A stretch of 64,000 bases of DNA from Blautia sp. Marseille-P3087 (GTDB lineage Bacteria; Bacillota; Clostridia; Lachnospirales; Lachnospiraceae): NCBI RefSeq assembly GCF_900120195.1, contig NZ_LT635539.1:1810649-1874648 (forward strand), given 5' to 3'. A model generated the notes under the pieces. The model was not told the DNA's origin and did not search any database. It saw only the letters and a list, made by a program, of their open reading frames with translations. The first letter of the stretch is position 1; the number at the start of each line of letters is the position of its first letter. Shown here in pieces: positions 52,627-64,000 of this stretch. The position numbers and the translations under genes were made by a program.

Positions 52627-52658
52627 CATAAAAAAGGAAGCCGTTATTCACGGCTTCC
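52627..52658 (-). terminator. Terminator of the polyamine operon
   Basis: Perfect 9-bp stem GGAAGCCGT (52636-52644) with ACGGCTTCC (52650-52658), followed on the minus strand by TTTTTTATG. The last codons and stop of nspC are in the hairpin. Confidence 0.88.
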
Positions 52659-53858
52659 AAGTCTTTCCTTAAAATCCATATAACCAAAATCTGTAAGCTG
52701 CTGCATCGTATTGTCAGCACGTCTGAGCCAGATATCCGGCAATGGCATTCCATTAAATGTATTGTTTTTGCAGGTAGTATAGATGGCCATATCTCCAAAC
52801 ATAAGGATATCTCCGTATTCCGGGAACTGCCTGAATTTATAATCCCCGATCACATCTCCTGACAGGCAGGTCGGTCCTCCAAGGCGAACTGTAATCCCGT
52901 TTTCTTCTGTCTCATCTGTTCCCAAAAGCGGTGGAAGATAAGGCATTTCCAGTACATCCGGCATATGACAGGCTGCGCTGGCATCTACGATCGCGATCTG
53001 TGTCTCTCCGTTTTTCAGGACATCCAGTACGCTGGTCAGCAGAAAGCCTGCATTTAATGCCCACGCTTCTCCGGGTTCAAGATAAACCTCTGCCTTCCAT
53101 TCCTCTTGTACCATCCGGATACAGCGTTCCAGTCGTTCAATATCATAGCCTGGTCTTGTAATATGGTGGCCGCCGCCAAAATTGATCCACTTCATTCTGG
53201 AAGCGAGATCACCAAAATGCTTCTTTACGGAAACAAGCGTTGTCTCCAGATCATCGGAATCCTGCTCACAGAGAGTATGGAAATGAAGTCCGTCGAGTAA
53301 ATCCAACAGTTCAGGATTTTTCTGAAATGCTTCATCCCACTGTGCTCTTGTTGTACCCATACGGCTTCCCGAAGCACAGGGATCATAGATATCGTGTCCT
53401 TCCTGGGTAGAACATTCCGGATTGATCCGCAGTCCGACGCTCTTTCCTGCTTCCTTTGCCCTTACACCAAAACGCAGAAGCTGAGAGGGTGAATTAAACA
53501 CAATATGATCCGCATACTGAAGAAGTTCTTCAAATTCATCAGCCCGGTAGCCTGCACAGAATACATGAACCTCTTTTCCCGGCATTTCCTCTGCTCCAAG
53601 CCGTGCCTCAAACAGCCCGCTTGCCTCTGTTCCTGCAAGATATGGTTCAAAAAAACGATAGCAGTCATAATTGCTGAACGCTTTCTGTGCCAAAAGCATC
53701 TTACATCCTGTCCGTTCAGATACTTCACCGAGCAGCTTTGCATTTTTTATAAGTGCTTTTTCATCCAGAATGTAGCAGGGTGTTTTTATGTTCTGGAATT
53801 CCGGCGGAATGATTCCGCCGGTGGCTGTAAACGGAGCTCTTTTATCCAATCCTTCCAT
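52644..53858 (-). CDS. nspC: Carboxynorspermidine/carboxyspermidine decarboxylase
   Basis: 404 residues, PLP-dependent fold III barrel (alanine-racemase/DABA decarboxylase type). It decarboxylates carboxyspermidine to spermidine, or carboxynorspermidine to norspermidine. The N-terminal TPCYILDEKALIKNAKLL and MLLAQKAFSNYDCY (Lys near 59 forms the PLP Schiff base) are characteristic, as are FHTLCEQDSDDLE, NFGGGHHITRPGYD and LEPGEAWALNAGFL. It is the last gene of the operon and overlaps the synthase gene before it by one base (TGATG). Confidence 0.92.
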   Translation of the reverse strand: MEGLDKRAPFTATGGIIPPEFQNIKTPCYILDEKALIKNAKLLGEVSERTGCKMLLAQKAFSNYDCYRFFEPYLAGTEASGLFEARLGAEEMPGKEVHVFCAGYRADEFEELLQYADHIVFNSPSQLLRFGVRAKEAGKSVGLRINPECSTQEGHDIYDPCASGSRMGTTRAQWDEAFQKNPELLDLLDGLHFHTLCEQDSDDLETTLVSVKKHFGDLASRMKWINFGGGHHITRPGYDIERLERCIRMVQEEWKAEVYLEPGEAWALNAGFLLTSVLDVLKNGETQIAIVDASAACHMPDVLEMPYLPPLLGTDETEENGITVRLGGPTCLSGDVIGDYKFRQFPEYGDILMFGDMAIYTTCKNNTFNGMPLPDIWLRRADNTMQQLTDFGYMDFKERLGSRE

Positions 53859-55117
53859 CAGTCTACCAGCTTCGGATCATAACTTTCACTGCGTGGCAGA
53901 CCATAACGGTCAAGAGCATCCAGGAACGGATCCGGATCAAATTCTTCTACGGTATATACACCTGGTCTGATCCATTTTCCTGTCAGCATCATAAGTGCTC
54001 CGCACATTGCCGGAACACCTGTTGTATAGCTGATTGCCTGACTTCCTACTTCGTGATAGCATTCCTGATGATCACATACATTGTAGATATAGTATGTTTT
54101 TTCTTTTCCGTCTTTTACACCGGTAAAGATACAGCCAATATTTGTTTTTCCTTTTGTACGTGGTCCAAGGCTTGCCGGATCCGGAAGCAGTGCTTTCAAA
54201 AACTGGATCGGAACAATTTCCTGTCCATTGTACTGGATCGGTGTTGTAGAAAGCATTCCTACATCTTCAAGACAACGCATGTGATCCAGATAGCTCTGTC
54301 CAAAAGTCATGAAGAAACGGATACGTTTTACACCTGGGATTGTTTTTGCAAGAGACTCAATCTCTTCATGGTGGAGCAGATACATATCCTTGTCGCCAAC
54401 CTGGTCGAAGTTATATTCTCTCTTGATATCCATCGGCGGGATTTCCACCCAGTGTCCATCTTCCCAGTAGCTTCCCGGTGCACTTACCTCACGAAGATTG
54501 ATCTCCGGATTAAAGTTTGTCGCAAATGCATATCCATGATCACCGCCGTTGCAGTCCAGGATATCAATTGTATCAATCTGGTCAAATTCATGCTTTAATG
54601 CATAGGCACAATAAGCCTGTGTAACACCCGGGTCAAATCCACATCCAAGAAGTGCTGTAAGTCCTGCATCTTCGAATTTTTTACGGTATGCCCACTGCCA
54701 GGAATAATCAAAGTATGCGGAAAAGCCTTCTTCTTTGCAGCGTTTTTCATAGATGGCACGCCACTCTGGATCATCGGTATCTTCCGGCTCATAGTTTGCT
54801 GTATCCATATAATTTACGCCACATGCCAGACACGCATCCATGATTGTCAGATCCTGATAAGGAAGGGCGATGTTCATTACCAGATCCGGTTTATAGCTGT
54901 TGATCAGTTCGATCAGCTGATCTACATCATCTGCATCCACCTTAGCTGTAGTAAGGACAGTTTTTGTCTTTCCTTTCAGTTTTTCTACAAGCGCATCACA
55001 TTTTTCCTTTGTACGGCTTGCAATACACATTTCTGTAAATACCTCATCAACCTGGCAACATTTCTGAATTGCCACACTGGCTACTCCACCGCAGCCGATC
55101 ACTAATACTCTGCTCAT
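53858..55117 (-). CDS. Carboxynorspermidine/carboxyspermidine synthase (saccharopine dehydrogenase family)
   Basis: 419 residues. It condenses putrescine or diaminopropane with aspartate semialdehyde and reduces the product with NADPH. The Rossmann fold begins RVLVIGCGGVASVAIQKCCQ; family segments are DTANYEPEDTDDPEW, GCGFDPGVTQAYCAY and NGGDHGYAFATNFNPEIN. The product goes to the decarboxylase encoded next. AAGGAG precedes the start. This is the S-adenosylmethionine-independent route to spermidine found in gut anaerobes. Confidence 0.92.
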   Translation of the reverse strand: MSRVLVIGCGGVASVAIQKCCQVDEVFTEMCIASRTKEKCDALVEKLKGKTKTVLTTAKVDADDVDQLIELINSYKPDLVMNIALPYQDLTIMDACLACGVNYMDTANYEPEDTDDPEWRAIYEKRCKEEGFSAYFDYSWQWAYRKKFEDAGLTALLGCGFDPGVTQAYCAYALKHEFDQIDTIDILDCNGGDHGYAFATNFNPEINLREVSAPGSYWEDGHWVEIPPMDIKREYNFDQVGDKDMYLLHHEEIESLAKTIPGVKRIRFFMTFGQSYLDHMRCLEDVGMLSTTPIQYNGQEIVPIQFLKALLPDPASLGPRTKGKTNIGCIFTGVKDGKEKTYYIYNVCDHQECYHEVGSQAISYTTGVPAMCGALMMLTGKWIRPGVYTVEEFDPDPFLDALDRYGLPRSESYDPKLVD

Positions 55118-55202: not shown

Positions 55203-56060
55203 CTATTTTGCAATTGCCAGAAGCAGTTCACGAAGAACCTTGCAGGCTGTTGCAGTTGAAACACCACTCGCATCCAGCATGGGTGCAAGTTCATTGACAT
55301 CTGCCCCTACCACATTTGCCTGAGAAACGGTACGGATTGCTTTAAGAAGCTCTAAAAAGCTCACACCTCCCGCCTCCGGAGTTCCTGTCCCCGGAAATAC
55401 CGATGGATCCAGGCAGTCCAGATCAATTGTAAAATATACCGGAACCTGTTTCTCTTTCAGTTCTCTGATGGTCTCTTCCAGTCCTTCAAAAGTAAACGGA
55501 TGAAAATCTGTATGTCTGGAAGCAAACTGAAATTCTTCCCTCTCTCCGCTTCGGATACAGAACTGATGGATATGGCCATCTCCCACAATTTCATGGCATC
55601 TGCGAAGAACACAGGCATGACTTAATTTTGCTCCGAGATAATCATCTCTTAAATCTGCATGAGCATCAAAATGGATAATATGAAGATCCGGATATTTTGC
55701 GGCTACAGCACGCACCGCTGCCAGTGTTACCAGATGTTCTCCTCCAAGAAGCAACGGGAATTTTCCTGCTCCCAGGATTTCTTCTGCTCTCTTTTCAATG
55801 TCTGAAAGTGCCATTTCACTGCTGCCAAAGCAAAGCTCCAGATCCCCGCTGTCAAATACGCTGATGTCCATAAGATCTTTATCCTGATACGGACTGTAGG
55901 TCTCCAGGCCAAAGCTCTCATGGCGCATGGCTGATGGGCCAAATCGGGCACCCGGACGAAAACTTGTTGTAGAATCAAACGGTGCACCATAAAGAACAAT
56001 GGATGCTTCCTCAAAACTGCTTTCGCAGCCGATAAAGGTTTCTATATTAGGTAAAATCAT
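55203..56060 (-). CDS. speB: Agmatinase
   Basis: 285 residues of the ureohydrolase family. Converts agmatine to putrescine and urea. Dimanganese ligands are in GGEHLV, HFDAHADLRDDYLG and TIDLDCLDPSVFPGTGTPEA. Length and motifs fit bacterial SpeB. It starts 3 bp after speE and feeds putrescine to the following synthase. Confidence 0.94.
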   Translation of the reverse strand: MILPNIETFIGCESSFEEASIVLYGAPFDSTTSFRPGARFGPSAMRHESFGLETYSPYQDKDLMDISVFDSGDLELCFGSSEMALSDIEKRAEEILGAGKFPLLLGGEHLVTLAAVRAVAAKYPDLHIIHFDAHADLRDDYLGAKLSHACVLRRCHEIVGDGHIHQFCIRSGEREEFQFASRHTDFHPFTFEGLEETIRELKEKQVPVYFTIDLDCLDPSVFPGTGTPEAGGVSFLELLKAIRTVSQANVVGADVNELAPMLDASGVSTATACKVLRELLLAIAK

Positions 56061-56063
56061 AAA

Positions 56064-56924
56064 TTAATCCTCCACTTCTTTCAGCATGTCTTCCAGAAAA
56101 GCCGGAAGATAAAATGCCCCTTTATGGAGTCTGGTCGTATAGTAGCGTGTACGAAGATTTAATGCGTTCCAGGCCTCTGCATCCAGATCATCTACCGGAT
56201 GATATTTTTTACTTGCAAATCCGAACAGCCAGTAACCTGCAGCAAAGGTTGGAATATGTGCCTGATAAACACGGCTGATCTGGAAGGTACTGGCAATCCT
56301 TTTATGGCTGCGCTGCATGGCATGTGCATCTTCTGCATAAAACGGGCTTCCCTGCTGGTTTACCATAATCCCGTCATCCTTCAGTGCATTATAACAGTTT
56401 CCGTAAAATTCACGGGTAAACAATCCTTCAGACGGACCAAACGGATCAGAGGAATCCACGATGATAAGATCATATTTTGCTTCACATCTTCGGATAAATC
56501 TCAGCGCATTTTCATAATGAAGATGAACTCTTCTGTCATCCAATCTGCAGGCATTTCCCGGAAGATAGGCACGACAGGCCTCAACAACCATAGGATCCAT
56601 TTCTACAAGATCAATATGACGTACTCTGTCATATCTGGTCAGTTCACGGACAACGCCACCATCTCCGGCACCGATCACCAGAATATCTTTTGCTTCTTTA
56701 TGGACCGACATCGGCACATGCGTGATCATCTCATCATAAATAAATTCGTCACGCTCTGTCAGCATTACATTTCCGTCCAGAGTCAGCACACGGCCGAATT
56801 CCGGTGTCTCAAAAATATCAATTCTCTGATACTCACTCTGTCTGGAATAAAGATGGCGGTTTACCCGGATACTGTGTTTCACATCCGGTGTATGAAATTC
56901 TGAAAACCACATTTCCATTGTCAT
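56064..56924 (-). CDS. speE: Spermidine synthase (aminopropyltransferase family)
   Basis: 286 residues. N-terminal beta barrel (YQRIDIFETPEFGRVLTLDG, MLTERDEFIYDEMITHVPM), then the methyltransferase-like fold with VIGAGDGGVVRELTRY and the catalytic IIVDSSDPFGPSEGLF loop. It transfers an aminopropyl group from decarboxylated S-adenosylmethionine to putrescine or agmatine. No SpeD is encoded in the operon. It overlaps speA by four bases (ATGA). Confidence 0.93.
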   Translation of the reverse strand: MTMEMWFSEFHTPDVKHSIRVNRHLYSRQSEYQRIDIFETPEFGRVLTLDGNVMLTERDEFIYDEMITHVPMSVHKEAKDILVIGAGDGGVVRELTRYDRVRHIDLVEMDPMVVEACRAYLPGNACRLDDRRVHLHYENALRFIRRCEAKYDLIIVDSSDPFGPSEGLFTREFYGNCYNALKDDGIMVNQQGSPFYAEDAHAMQRSHKRIASTFQISRVYQAHIPTFAAGYWLFGFASKKYHPVDDLDAEAWNALNLRTRYYTTRLHKGAFYLPAFLEDMLKEVED

Positions 56925-58390
56925 TCCCTCCCTGTCAGAACATTCAGTCTCAAAATATCAGGATCTTCAGGTCCCGTCATGTTACAGCCCTTTGCTTTGG
57001 CATATTCAATATAATCCAGGATCTCTGCTGTGATACGTTCCCCCGGTGCAAGAATCGGAATTCCAGGCGGATAGCACATCACAAATTCACTGCAGACCTT
57101 ACCCTCGGTTTCACGAAGCGGCAGACTGCATTTATCCGCATAAAAAGCATCCTGCGGGCTGGTCACTACCTGAGGATCAATATATTCCTGACTCAGAAGT
57201 CCTGAACCATCTGTCTGAAAACGTCTGCGGATCTCTGCGAGCGCACTCACAAGCCGCTCTACTTCCTGTGCACGGTCTCCTATGGAAAGGTAGGCAAGAA
57301 TATTACCGATATCTCCAAACTCTATCTGAATATCATATTCGTCACGCAGAATATCATACACTTCGATTCCTGCAAGTCCGATATCCAGCGTATGTACGCT
57401 TAATTTAGTTATATCAAAATCAAAAACAGAGTTTCCGTTTACCAGTTCTTTGCCAAACGCATAATAACCGCCGATCGCATTGATTTCCTCTCTGGCATAT
57501 TCTGCCATATCTGCTACCTGATGAAAGATCTGACGGCCGCGCTGTGCAAGGTTTCTTCTTGAGATATCAAGGCTTGACATCAGAAGGTAGCTTCCTGAGG
57601 TCGTCTGTGTCAGATTGATGATCTGGCGCACATAGCCGGCATGTACATCCGGACCTGTAAGAAGAAGGCTTGACTGTGTAAGACTTCCTCCACTCTTATG
57701 CATGGACACAGCTGCCATATCTGCACCTGCTGCCATAGCAGAGACAGGAAGACCTCCTCCAAAATAAAAATGCGTTCCATGTGCCTCATCTGCCAGACAA
57801 AGCATTCCTGCATCATGAGCCATCTTAACGATCGCACGCAGGTCACTGCATATTCCGTAATAAGTCGGATTGTTTACCAGTACTGCAACTGCCTTTGGAT
57901 GTTCTTTTATCGCTTTCTCCACCTGTTCCCTTTTCATTCCAAGGGAGATTCCAAGCCGCTGATCTACTTCCGGGTTTACATAAACAGGAATCGCACCACA
58001 CAAAACAAGTGCATTCAAAACACTCCTGTGAACGTTACGTGGCAGTATGATCTCATCTCCACGTTTGCAGGCAGTCAGGACCATCGTCTGAACAGAACTT
58101 GTCGTGCCTCCTACCATCAGAAATGCATGTGCTGCTCCAAAGGCATCTGCTGCCAGTTCTTCTGCCTCCCGTATTACAGATACCGGATGACAGAGATTAT
58201 CCAGTGGCTTCATACTGTTAACATCAACACCTACACATTTTTGTCCCAGAAATTCTGTCAGCTCCGGATTGCCTCTTCCGCGCTTATGGCCAGGTACATC
58301 AAATGGTACAACCCTCATACGACGGAAAGTCTCCAGAGCTTCATGTATCGGTGCATGATTCTGATTTAATTTAAAACGACTTCCTTTCAT
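56921..58390 (-). CDS. speA: Arginine decarboxylase (Orn/Lys/Arg decarboxylase, fold type I)
   Basis: 489 residues from ATG at 58390, preceded by GGAGGA; an ATG directly before it (58393) is possible. The longer frame to 58441 extends into the leader terminator and has a poor ribosome-binding site. Converts arginine to agmatine. Family segments are VVPFDVPGHKRGRGNPELTE, MVGGTTSSVQTMVL, LCLADEAHGTHFYF and the PLP lysine in AVSMHKSGGSLTQSS near 231. The C-terminal wing has PPGIPILAPGERIT. Length matches the Bacillus SpeA class. Lysine decarboxylase is the main alternative, but agmatinase in the operon favours arginine. Confidence 0.9.
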   Translation of the reverse strand: MKGSRFKLNQNHAPIHEALETFRRMRVVPFDVPGHKRGRGNPELTEFLGQKCVGVDVNSMKPLDNLCHPVSVIREAEELAADAFGAAHAFLMVGGTTSSVQTMVLTACKRGDEIILPRNVHRSVLNALVLCGAIPVYVNPEVDQRLGISLGMKREQVEKAIKEHPKAVAVLVNNPTYYGICSDLRAIVKMAHDAGMLCLADEAHGTHFYFGGGLPVSAMAAGADMAAVSMHKSGGSLTQSSLLLTGPDVHAGYVRQIINLTQTTSGSYLLMSSLDISRRNLAQRGRQIFHQVADMAEYAREEINAIGGYYAFGKELVNGNSVFDFDITKLSVHTLDIGLAGIEVYDILRDEYDIQIEFGDIGNILAYLSIGDRAQEVERLVSALAEIRRRFQTDGSGLLSQEYIDPQVVTSPQDAFYADKCSLPLRETEGKVCSEFVMCYPPGIPILAPGERITAEILDYIEYAKAKGCNMTGPEDPDILRLNVLTGRE

Positions 58391-58392
58391 CA

Positions 58393-58767
58393 TTCCTCCA
58401 ATTCCAGTTTCCTTTGTATCACCCCTTAATATACATTCCACAGACTGAATAAAAAAACGCAGATCAGGGCACTAAGCCACAAACCTGCGTTTGATCTGTA
58501 TTCGCATGCGTATCAGAGTCTATATAGCAATCATACTTTTACTACTCTTATTGATCGTTTCACAAGTCTGCGCTTCTGACGCATCTCGGTTATCAAAGGA
58601 ACCTACTTATAAAATTTGAGCTTTTAACTCAATCAATAAGGTAACCAAAGTTACCATAATCGGCAGTGGACCCGGCTGTCCGTATGGCCTTAACCCTGAC
58701 GGGTGGTCCCAAACAATTGCTTTGAAAAGACTCTGTCTGTTACTCTGCATCTTCGTCTCTCAAAATT
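58393..58767 (-). ncRNA. Long structured leader of the polyamine operon (candidate riboswitch or attenuator)
   Basis: About 375 nt from the promoter to speA. Pairings seen on the minus strand: GGACC with GGTCC enclosing a ~35-nt branch; the hairpin GGTAAC-TTTG-GTTACC; TTGAG-TTAAAAG-CTCAA; TGCG-TCAGAAG-CGCA; and long-range CAGAGTC with GACTCTG closing most of the region. It ends in an intrinsic terminator. I find no T-box (AGGGTGG), lysine, SAM, TPP, cobalamin, FMN, glycine or guanidine-I signature. The length and the terminator argue for conditional control of speA onward. It is not protein-coding on either strand. Confidence 0.6.
58449..58493 (-). terminator. Terminator within the speA leader
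   Basis: AAACGCAG pairs with CTGCGTTT on the minus strand around a ~21-nt loop, followed by a run of T. CAGATC just upstream can also pair with GATCTG in the downstream arm, offering an alternative (antiterminator-like) fold. It lies 60 bp before the speA start. Confidence 0.8.
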
Positions 58768-58773
58768 GACCTA

Positions 58774-58802
58774 ATCATATCATGTTGAAAAAAAACTGTC
58801 AA
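58774..58802 (-). promoter_or_regulatory. Sigma-A promoter of the polyamine operon
   Basis: TTGACA (complement of 58797-58802), 17-nt spacer, TATGAT (complement of 58774-58779). A near-consensus promoter; transcription should start around 58767, giving the long leader. Confidence 0.82.
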
Positions 58803-58849
58803 GTTCCGCTTCATCCTCAACATGTGGAATCAAAAATCCCTATAACGTA

Positions 58850-58891
58850 AAAATGTCGTCTCACCATCCTTAGACAGTAAAACGACATTTT
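58850..58891 (-). terminator. Terminator of the truncated Rpn gene
   Basis: AAAATGTCGT (58850-58859) pairs with ACGACATTTT (58882-58891). The same hairpin follows the second Rpn gene at 63141-63183 in a stronger version. Confidence 0.65.
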
Positions 58892-58959
58892 CTTACTTAC
58901 ATCTTTTGATTTGGTTTGTTTCCATTTTTAGCTTTATTAAATGATACGGTATTTCTATA

Positions 58960-59581
58960 TTACTTCTGTTCCTGACTCTTTAACAGCTTCCTGAGACGCT
59001 GAATTTCCTCTTCAAGCGCATTTGCTCGCTCTTCTGCCTCAATCTTTAACTGTTTTTCCTCATCCGCGCGCTGTTTCTCTTCATCCGCGCGTTGCTTCTC
59101 TTCATCCGCGCGTTGCTTCTCTTCATCCGCGCGTTGTCTTTCAGCCTCTGCACGCTGTTTCTCTCTCGCAGTATTTCTTTTTTGAGCCCCTATGTCTATT
59201 TCTTCCATATTCTCAAACAAATATCCCATACCACGACCTCCTATTCCACCCATTAGCTCCCGGGCATTCTCACTTGGTACTTTCATTTTCATTAGTAAAG
59301 ACCACAGTATCTTTTTATAAATTTCCTTTATTTCGTCTGGTGCATTCACATAAATAGAATCCACCATTGTTTCGGAGACTTTTTGAAATTCCTTAGTATC
59401 CTCCGAAGACTGTATTTTATTAATCAGCATTACCAAAGACATTTCATCATGTTTCTTGCTGAGCTCCTCATTCGTATATTTATTCAAACTCACTACCTGG
59501 TATGTAAAATCTGGTATATACTCGATCATTTCCTCAGAAAAATCAATTCTGTCTTTCAAATGCAGTCCCGCTGTCCACTCG
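58960..59581 (-). pseudogene. Rpn-type nuclease/transposase, N-terminally truncated copy
   Basis: About 205 residues remain: EWTAGLHLKDRIDFSEEMIE, NEELSKKHDEMSLVMLINK, a linker, GGRGMGYLFENMEEIDIGA, then a charged coiled coil of QRADEEK units and a final LRKLLKSQEQK. The same segments occur in order in the gene at 63254, which belongs to the Rpn (recombination-promoting nuclease, PD-(D/E)XK) family. The nuclease domain is missing and homology stops at base ~59581, where a hairpin begins. An internal ATG could still express the C-terminal part. Confidence 0.75.
59055..59140. repeat. 21-bp tandem repeat coding for QRADEEK heptads, copy 1
   Basis: Four near-identical 21-bp units (TTGCTTCTCTTCATCCGCGC type) each encode QRADEEK or a close variant, making a highly charged alpha-helix. 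Unit number differs from the paralogue at 63310, a sign of slippage. Confidence 0.85.
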
Positions 59582-63253: not shown

Positions 63254-64000
63254 TTACTTCTGTCCCTGAATCTCTAACCGCTTCCTGAGTCGCTGAAGTT
63301 CCTCCTCTAGTGCATCCGCTCGCTGCTTCTCTTCATCCGCTCGCTGCTTCTCTTCTTCTGCCCGCTGCTTCTCTTCATCCGCTCGCTGCTTCTCTTCTTC
63401 TGCCCGCTGCTTCTCTTCTTCTGCCCGCTGCCTTGTTAAGGCAACCTTCCTTTTTAGAGCCCCAATATCTATTTCGTCCATATTCTCAAACAGATATCCC
63501 ATACCATGACCTCCAATCTCGCCTATAATATTGCTGGCCTCCTCATTCGATACTTTTAATTTCATTAGTAATGACCATAATATTTTCTTATATATCTCTT
63601 TTATCTCATCCGGTGCATTTCCATAAGTGGAATCTACCATTTCCTCCGAGACCTTTCTAAACTCCGAAAGATCTTCCTCCGTCTGTATCTTATTAATCAG
63701 CATCACCAATGACATTTCATCATGTTTTTCGCTGAGTTCTTCATTTGTATATTGTCTCACACTCACTACCTGATATGTAAAATCCGGAATATATTTTTCC
63801 ATTTCTTCTGAAAATTCAATGCGGTCTTTCAGGTTCAAATCTGCAGTCCATTTCCGTTTTCCCTCATAATATACAATTGGAATAATCAGAGGATAACGAA
63901 AATTTTTACGTCGGCTGCTTCCTTCCTGGATTTTATTCTGAGTCGCTTTATATTCCTGCCAGATTACACACATGTACCGAAGCAACTGCATCGCCACATC
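63254..64000 (-). CDS. Rpn family recombination-promoting nuclease/putative transposase (partial)
   Basis: C-terminal ~248 residues; the gene runs off the right edge of the window. Seen are RYPLIIPIVYYEGKRKWTAD, DRIEFSEEMEKYIPDFTYQV, NEELSEKHDEMSLVMLINKI, GHGMGYLFENMDEIDIGALK and a coiled-coil tail of QRAEEEK/QRADEEK units ending LQRLRKRLEIQGQK. In this family the PD-(D/E)XK nuclease domain is N-terminal and therefore outside the window. It shares its terminator design and 3' flank with the truncated copy at 58960. Confidence 0.8.
   Translation of the reverse strand, partial: DVAMQLLRYMCVIWQEYKATQNKIQEGSSRRKNFRYPLIIPIVYYEGKRKWTADLNLKDRIEFSEEMEKYIPDFTYQVVSVRQYTNEELSEKHDEMSLVMLINKIQTEEDLSEFRKVSEEMVDSTYGNAPDEIKEIYKKILWSLLMKLKVSNEEASNIIGEIGGHGMGYLFENMDEIDIGALKRKVALTRQRAEEEKQRAEEEKQRADEEKQRAEEEKQRADEEKQRADALEEELQRLRKRLEIQGQK
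63310..63433. repeat. 21-bp tandem repeat coding for QRAEEEK/QRADEEK heptads, copy 2
   Basis: Five to six 21-bp units alternating two variants (CGCTGCTTCTCTTCATCCGC and CGCTGCTTCTCTTCTTCTGC types). More units than in the truncated paralogue. They encode a long charged helix at the C-terminus of the Rpn protein. Confidence 0.85.

Follow-up and report, generated by a model that had tools for sequence, protein, structure and literature searches.

The polyamine operon on the minus strand of the window (the whole 64,000-nucleotide stretch of Blautia sp. Marseille-P3087 analysed here) is preceded by a long leader. This raises the question of whether the leader is a structured RNA that conditionally terminates transcription and, if so, which signal it reads. 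The near-consensus promoter and the terminator about 60 nt ahead of speA that the sequence-only reading had placed at the two ends of the leader are both present (Table 1). It described some 375 nt as free of genes, which is almost correct: there is a 47-codon ORF (58750-58607), but it is not conserved in relatives. The 375-nt leader folds with a z-score of -2.48 relative to shuffled copies, two of 100 shuffles being equal or better. Upstream, an inverted repeat (AAAAUGUCGUUUUACUGUC...GACGACAUUUUU, 58848-58890) adjoins the promoter and is perhaps the terminator of the neighbouring unit. Downstream, the product of the first operon gene has the lysine decarboxylase LdcC as its top NCBIfam match, with a score (79.4 bits) far under the cut-off of 968. 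No match to the E. coli-type SpeD (TIGR03331) was found in the window genome, although the operon carries speE.

Table 1. Positions of the leader, its RNA elements and the operon genes in the window
Feature	Position	Strand	Remark
Promoter TTGACA-N17-TATGAT	58802-58774	minus	11/12 consensus matches, TG ahead of the -10
Leader	~58767 to 58393	minus	~375 nt, from the predicted start site
Conserved RNA element	58514..58735	minus	~240 nt; modules A and B, closed by P1/P1b
P1 5' strand CAGAGUC	58729..58735	minus	pairs with 58520-58514
P1 3' strand GACUCUG	58514..58520	minus	near-invariant strand
P1b 5' strand GCAAU	58716..58720	minus	
P1b 3' strand AUUGC	58527..58531	minus	pairs with P1b 5' strand
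Module A (RF02440)	58660..58709	minus	holds P2, P3, P4 and possible pseudoknot
P2	58709-58705/58672-58668	minus	within module A
P3	58704-58701/58696-58693	minus	within module A
P4	58689-58687/58676-58674	minus	within module A
Possible pseudoknot	58682-58680/58663-58661	minus	strands never vary, hence without covariation evidence
P5 hairpin GGUAAC/GUUACC	58640..58655	minus	two-sided changes
P6 5' strand UUAUUGAUU	58631..58639	minus	pairs with 58556-58548
P6 3' strand GAUCAAUAA	58548..58556	minus	pairs with 58631..58639
P7 hairpin GAG/CUC	58618..58630	minus	helix of the covariation test
P8 5' strand UUAUAAGU	58605..58612	minus	pairs with 58567-58560
P8 3' strand ACUUGUGA	58560..58567	minus	shared with the antiterminator
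Highly conserved stretch AAGAGUAGUAAAAGUA	58534..58549	minus	unpaired in the proposed structure; first two bases close P6
Antiterminator 5' strand AAGCGCAGACUUGUG	58561..58575	minus	15 pairs with 58489-58474
Antiterminator 3' strand	58474..58489	minus	in the terminator 5' arm and its loop side
Intrinsic terminator and U tract	58451..58492	minus	stem 58492-58482/58465-58455
7-U tract of the terminator	58457-58451	minus	~60 nt upstream of speA
speA-like Orn/Lys/Arg decarboxylase	56921..58390	minus	first operon gene; start at 58393 or 58390
speE	56064..56924	minus	NCBIfam match above cut-off
speB (agmatinase)	55203..56060	minus	NCBIfam match above cut-off
Carboxy(nor)spermidine synthase (CASDH)	53858..55117	minus	E 3.6e-122; 408.5 bits, cut-off 800
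nspC (carboxy(nor)spermidine decarboxylase)	52644..53858	minus	402.6 bits, cut-off 409.05

The sole Rfam 15 match in the leader is RF02440 (SpF59_sRNA, 'ldcC RNA'), which coincides with module A and scores 68.9 bits against a gathering cut-off of 37.2 bits. The match is full-length, with model positions 1-54 of 54 covering about 50 nt of the leader. The validated riboswitch classes in Rfam 15 gave no match at the element, and module B of the window matches no Rfam family at E up to 5. The claim that the leader matches no riboswitch class thus holds for riboswitches, whereas it fails for Rfam families at large. Formally the search returns the confident Rfam match that the sequence-only reading had named as refuting it, but RF02440 does not explain the leader because it is a 54-nt model typed 'Gene; sRNA'; the model corresponds to the optional module A only, to which the window leader adds module B, P1 and the terminator.

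The pneumococcal RNA known as F59, SN20 or srn235 appears to be the SpF59 of RF02440. SN20 (869478-869791) is tabulated with a promoter and a terminator between SP0915 and SP0916, and its authors considered it a possible FMN switch owing to a shared motif (PMC2887815); SP0916 is reported to be an arginine decarboxylase (PMC7990898). Like the window leader, which stands before a speA-like gene, this RNA lies next to an arginine decarboxylase gene and is listed with a promoter and a terminator. It has been catalogued as an sRNA (PMC3395615, PMC12323649), which, together with the Rfam type, would suit a terminated leader that acts in trans on other mRNAs. The same-strand synteny with polyamine genes and the pairing of the RNA with its own terminator, both described below, point instead to cis action, and a trans-acting sRNA is a very unlikely explanation, although the leader may have a trans role as well. 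The label 'ldcC RNA' suggests that someone had already linked the RNA to ldcC; neither a source for this label nor, among the papers listed by the literature searches, a description of the leader RNA as a polyamine switch was found.

In the flanks of the RF02440 loci, strong conservation was found over a further stretch of more than 100 nt downstream, which pairs back upstream. Comparison of relatives shows that module A is optional and module B constant, and that the leader RNA is common to many gut and soil bacteria. A pattern for module B only recovers at least 119 loci in GTDB genomes, all of them from Bacillota among the matches listed (85 Clostridia, 31 Bacilli, one Negativicutes, one Erysipelotrichia and one without a class). 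By a strict test, 74 of these loci carry module A about 110 nt upstream; eight others start too near the locus end, and the remaining 37, judged by eye, comprise about 27 without module A and about 10 in which it is altered. Eighteen of the pattern loci were searched against Rfam at the gathering cut-off, and only RF02440 was found at the element, in 15 of them. A covariance model of module B, R1, detects the element in 69 of 299 same-family genomes and 24 of 398 same-phylum genomes, as compared with 50 and 18 for RF02440. The R1 genomes include 48 of the 50 and all 18 of the RF02440 genomes, an overlap that is partly by construction, since 10 of the 20 loci from which R1 was built came from genomes found with RF02440.

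The window genome holds one copy of the element according to R1. The elements of L207 and L208, which precede speD, are the most strongly reduced among the relatives: what can be recognised is limited to P1b and the stretch ACUUGUGAA to GACUCU, without P5-P7. The AAGAGUAGUAAAAGUA stretch is retained in both, and these loci would be useful for defining a minimal aptamer. No match to the element was found in viral contigs with the exact pattern or in phages by blastn. Among plasmids, one Paenibacillus record contains the element at a place with no annotated feature, where the predicted ORFs correspond to CASDH-nspC. A tandem pair in locus L241 (810-1600) was considered as a case of cooperative switches and rejected, as it is a 390-bp duplication of the whole element.

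The structure was evaluated on a start set of 186 loci, 181 of them distinct by core sequence. Of these 186, 139 contain module A together with the module B landmark (20 of the 139 lack another landmark), and 97 have standard spacings, of which 72 remained after the removal of near-duplicates (>92% alike). L174, in which the P2 strand was not found, was left out, which yielded 71 sequences for the covariation scan; four loci with a long P3 were left out of alignment A2, which thus contains 67 elements. In these, 95.4% of the cells of the 53 named pairs are paired, a measure that is biased in favour of the structure because the latter was read from the same sequences. Two-sided changes are the better measure, and were found in 23 pairs, against a shuffle mean of 11.0. 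On each of five measures the real alignment outdoes all 500 shuffles, and pairing falls to 27.9-44.4% when partners are slid. The covariation test on the leaders of relatives that the sequence-only reading had proposed therefore supports a conserved structure.

An all-against-all covariation scan of the 71 sequences, with 60 tree-simulated alignments as the null, places its top four pairs in P3, P3, P2 and P5 (E-values of 0.02, 0.02, 0.02 and 0.15), no other pair having an E-value below 1. Both sides of P4 and P2 change together, from GGC..GCC to GCC..GGC. Covariation says little for much of P6 and P8 and for the whole of the possible pseudoknot, as the bases are invariant: in P6, five of nine pairs never vary and three vary on one side, and in P8 four of eight pairs never vary. 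Both strands of a local pairing in module B, AGAGU/ACUCU, hardly vary. The long-range stem CAGAGTC/GACTCTG recognised in the sequence-only reading is present as P1 at the base of a real helix, P1b, but P1 itself is strongly complementary in no more than 42 of the 101 loci examined. In the same 101 loci, the P1b strands pair with their own partners at -9.08 kcal/mol versus -6.43 kcal/mol with swapped partners (partner-swap z -14.5; control strands, -1.8 and +1.6).

The relatives also bear on the possibility that the leader works by leader-peptide attenuation, either via the 47-codon ORF or via a GUG ORF (MKRSIRVVKV) in module B. The former is intact in the window, where it lies over the Rfam match, and the invariant core reads LRPYGQPG in its frame. 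However, an ATG, GTG or TTG is found upstream in frame in only 28 of 65 readable loci, loop lengths vary by non-multiples of three, and the two-sided pair changes show that it is the RNA structure that is kept. The frame of the GUG ORF is broken by a change of GUG to GUA and by insertions of 1-2 nt (L021, L012, L033, L048). Both ORFs were rejected on the relatives, which contain no conserved translatable ORF, and attenuation by a leader peptide is largely refuted and scarcely credible.

Signals for the start and the end of transcription accompany the element in relatives. In 69 of 133 loci a promoter-like sequence with 10 or more of 12 matches immediately precedes it, compared with two of 133 for a control region 200 nt further upstream. 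A terminator-like hairpin is found downstream of the element in 174 of 184 loci and was not found in the other 10; in control regions, the same detector finds such a hairpin in 35 of 128 cases upstream and in 33 of 121 at 1 kb downstream. After the removal of identical pairs, 169 of the loci with a terminator were available for partner swapping. Duplexes between the module B strand that ends in ACUUGUG and the terminator 5' arm of the same locus have a mean energy of -13.96 kcal/mol, versus -11.47 kcal/mol for swapped partners (z -13.5 and -13.9; the lowest of 5000 permutation means is -12.3). Kinship among the loci inflates these scores, but the control offsets carry equal kinship: nine other offsets, two of them slightly overlapping, give z from -1.8 to +1.6, and a heavily overlapping one gives -12.8. 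For 70 non-redundant loci the z-score is -9.8, with 0 of 5000 permutations reaching the observed value. The antiterminator of the window has a calculated energy of -18.3 to -18.6 kcal/mol. By contrast, the alternative fold drawn in the sequence-only reading, CAGATC (58498-58493) with GATCTG (58465-58460), finds no support in the comparison and was rejected; both strands are present in the window, but the sequence just upstream of the terminator and the terminator 3' arm give z +0.6 over the 169 loci.

The antiterminator strand overlaps P8, which makes the two folds mutually exclusive, and a folded module B should therefore leave the terminator free. An expression platform that is exclusive with the aptamer fold, as is typical of riboswitches, is thus seen in the comparison, whereas the computed energies show no balanced switch. 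In nearest-neighbour calculations, the folded module B is about 7-13 kcal/mol more stable than the antiterminator once the terminator 5' arm has been made, at every length examined from 58478 onward, and a switch operated by equilibrium energy alone was set aside for this reason. Given that calculation favours the OFF fold, either the ON state would depend on kinetic trapping or on the aid of a factor, or the energy model fails for this fold. A structured leader with conditional termination ahead of the polyamine operon, as had been proposed from the sequence, is well supported by the comparative evidence, and there is little doubt that the leader represents a real, widespread, structured attenuator.

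That the ON fold seems, from the computed energies, to need help would agree with a scheme in which a protein bound to the RNA, an antiterminator or a polyamine-responsive RNA-binding protein, sets termination without direct binding of a metabolite. A binding site for a protein would also be compatible with the conserved bases that are left unpaired. Little speaks against this scheme; the element loses whole modules while the same genes are kept, a weak argument for a compact core site, be it for a protein or for a metabolite. A bound protein is an unlikely explanation when set beside an RNA that itself senses a metabolite.

The genes that follow the element in relatives give an indication of the metabolite. 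Loci were chosen by the RNA alone, and gene calls were made with seven reference proteins. Among the 181 distinct loci, speA is the first gene to be recognised in 71 (plus one in which it lies farther off), speD in 64, CASDH in 34 and potA in five, and six loci have none; the figures for all 186 loci are 73 (plus one farther off), 64, 37, five and six, respectively. The element leads to speA, speD, carboxyspermidine synthase or potA in 175 of the 181. Five of the six loci without a recognised gene end within 164 bases. In the sixth, L019, the element precedes a peptidase-like ORF. Loci derived with R1 agree with this picture: in one set, all 16 readable loci (of 17), 14 of which were not found by RF02440, and in a second set 12 of 13, the remaining one lying near a contig edge. 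The leader thus lies, conserved and structured, in cis to related metabolic genes, as riboswitches do. Where more than 4.5 kb of downstream sequence was available, 17 of 54 loci show only CASDH-nspC. Spermidine is the product common to the speD/speE and CASDH/nspC routes, and the pot genes import it.

Structure, promoter position, terminator, antiterminator complementarity and gene association are each borne out by the comparison of sequences; from them we infer direct small-molecule binding, spermidine as the ligand and an OFF polarity. The leader is, on balance, probably a putative cis-acting, transcription-attenuating, riboswitch-like RNA that senses spermidine directly. RNA polymerase would start at the promoter and make about 240 nt of RNA that would fold into P1/P1b, the optional module A and module B. 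With module B folded, the P8 strand would be engaged, the terminator would form and transcription would stop before speA. If module B were not stabilised, 58575-58561 would pair with 58489-58474 and the polymerase would read on. Spermidine would be the most likely stabiliser of module B, and feedback on its synthesis and import would result.

Among the signals named in the sequence-only reading, spermidine is the best candidate, whereas the occurrence of the RNA before potA, and before operons with CASDH-nspC as the only genes recognised, makes arginine and agmatine less likely. The same attenuator with another ligand (putrescine, cadaverine, agmatine, arginine or an aminopropyl intermediate) is a reading for which speA, as the commonest first gene, speaks; the CASDH-nspC-only and potA contexts tell against it. 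So does pneumococcus, where DFMO is reported to have lowered agmatine and putrescine without raising the operon genes for which values are given (PMC10887117). A ligand other than spermidine is accordingly improbable.

Pneumococcal expression data bear on the proposed direct sensing of spermidine. Under AMXT 1501, a treatment reported to lower spermidine, SPD0809, 0811, 0813, 0814 and 0815 rose 1.4-1.9 fold by RNA-seq, and three genes rose 2.4-3.3 fold by qRT-PCR, while DFMO lowered SPD0813 and 0815 by 1.5 fold; both drugs are reported to reduce agmatine, putrescine and cadaverine (PMC10887117). Deletion of speE is described as raising the arginine decarboxylase protein (PMC7990898). The rise under AMXT 1501 and the effect of the speE deletion, as given in these reports, would be expected of a switch that spermidine turns off. 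The opposite is reported for deletion of SP_0916 or of putrescine synthesis, after which the products of polyamine or spermidine synthesis genes fall instead of rising (PMC10887117, PMC7990898). Polarity caused by loss of the first gene could account for the fall after deletion of SP_0916, but these reports slightly lower our confidence in a direct spermidine sensor. The published pneumococcal data used here thus fit spermidine repression in part, and come from studies that were designed for other aims and used drugs with wide effects.

In layout, the leader resembles large attenuating riboswitches such as those for lysine and adenosylcobalamin, which combine a long aptamer, many conserved unpaired bases and peripheral modules with a terminator/antiterminator platform; no family match to these was found at the element. 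Polyamine riboswitches have long been expected. The nearest functional counterpart is the SAM-I-derived spermidine riboswitch, which precedes ldcC, speB, speD and speE, gene kinds like those behind the leader, and for which spermidine-triggered transcription termination has been reported (PMC10853860). That riboswitch has a SAM-I fold, with a consensus drawn from 13 representatives according to its description (PMC10853860); the window leader is of another architecture, and a search of 58300-58900 for the SAM-I fold (RF00162) was negative up to an E-value of 5. Judged by the published account (PMC10853860), the two RNAs differ in both fold and breadth. The odc1 motif of alphaproteobacteria is likewise an RNA element before a polyamine gene, but is described as a hairpin with a pseudoknot, is filed as a uORF motif and belongs to a phylum other than that of the leader (PMC8632094).

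The validated polyamine class is rare, and in the words of its authors it seems certain that there are others (PMC10853860). There is about an even chance that the leader is a second natural spermidine riboswitch class in Bacillota, structurally unrelated to the first and far more widespread. The constant core, which shrinks to some 55 nt and P1b in the smallest forms encountered, would then be the sensor, and the detachable module A would be a tertiary-contact or second-input domain. If so, a separate and common class would exist in gut Clostridia, Bacillus, Paenibacillus and probably Streptococcus, it would explain how such bacteria hold spermidine steady, and an RNA filed as an sRNA would become a cis switch.

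Two further features of the window were recorded apart from the polyamine leader. A ribosomal protein L10 leader (RF00557, 77.8 bits) lies at 5753-5620 on the minus strand. Two similar ORFs on the minus strand, 58960-59559 and 63254-63997, carry long EEKQRADEEKQRAD-type repeats near their C-termini and probably belong to one family.
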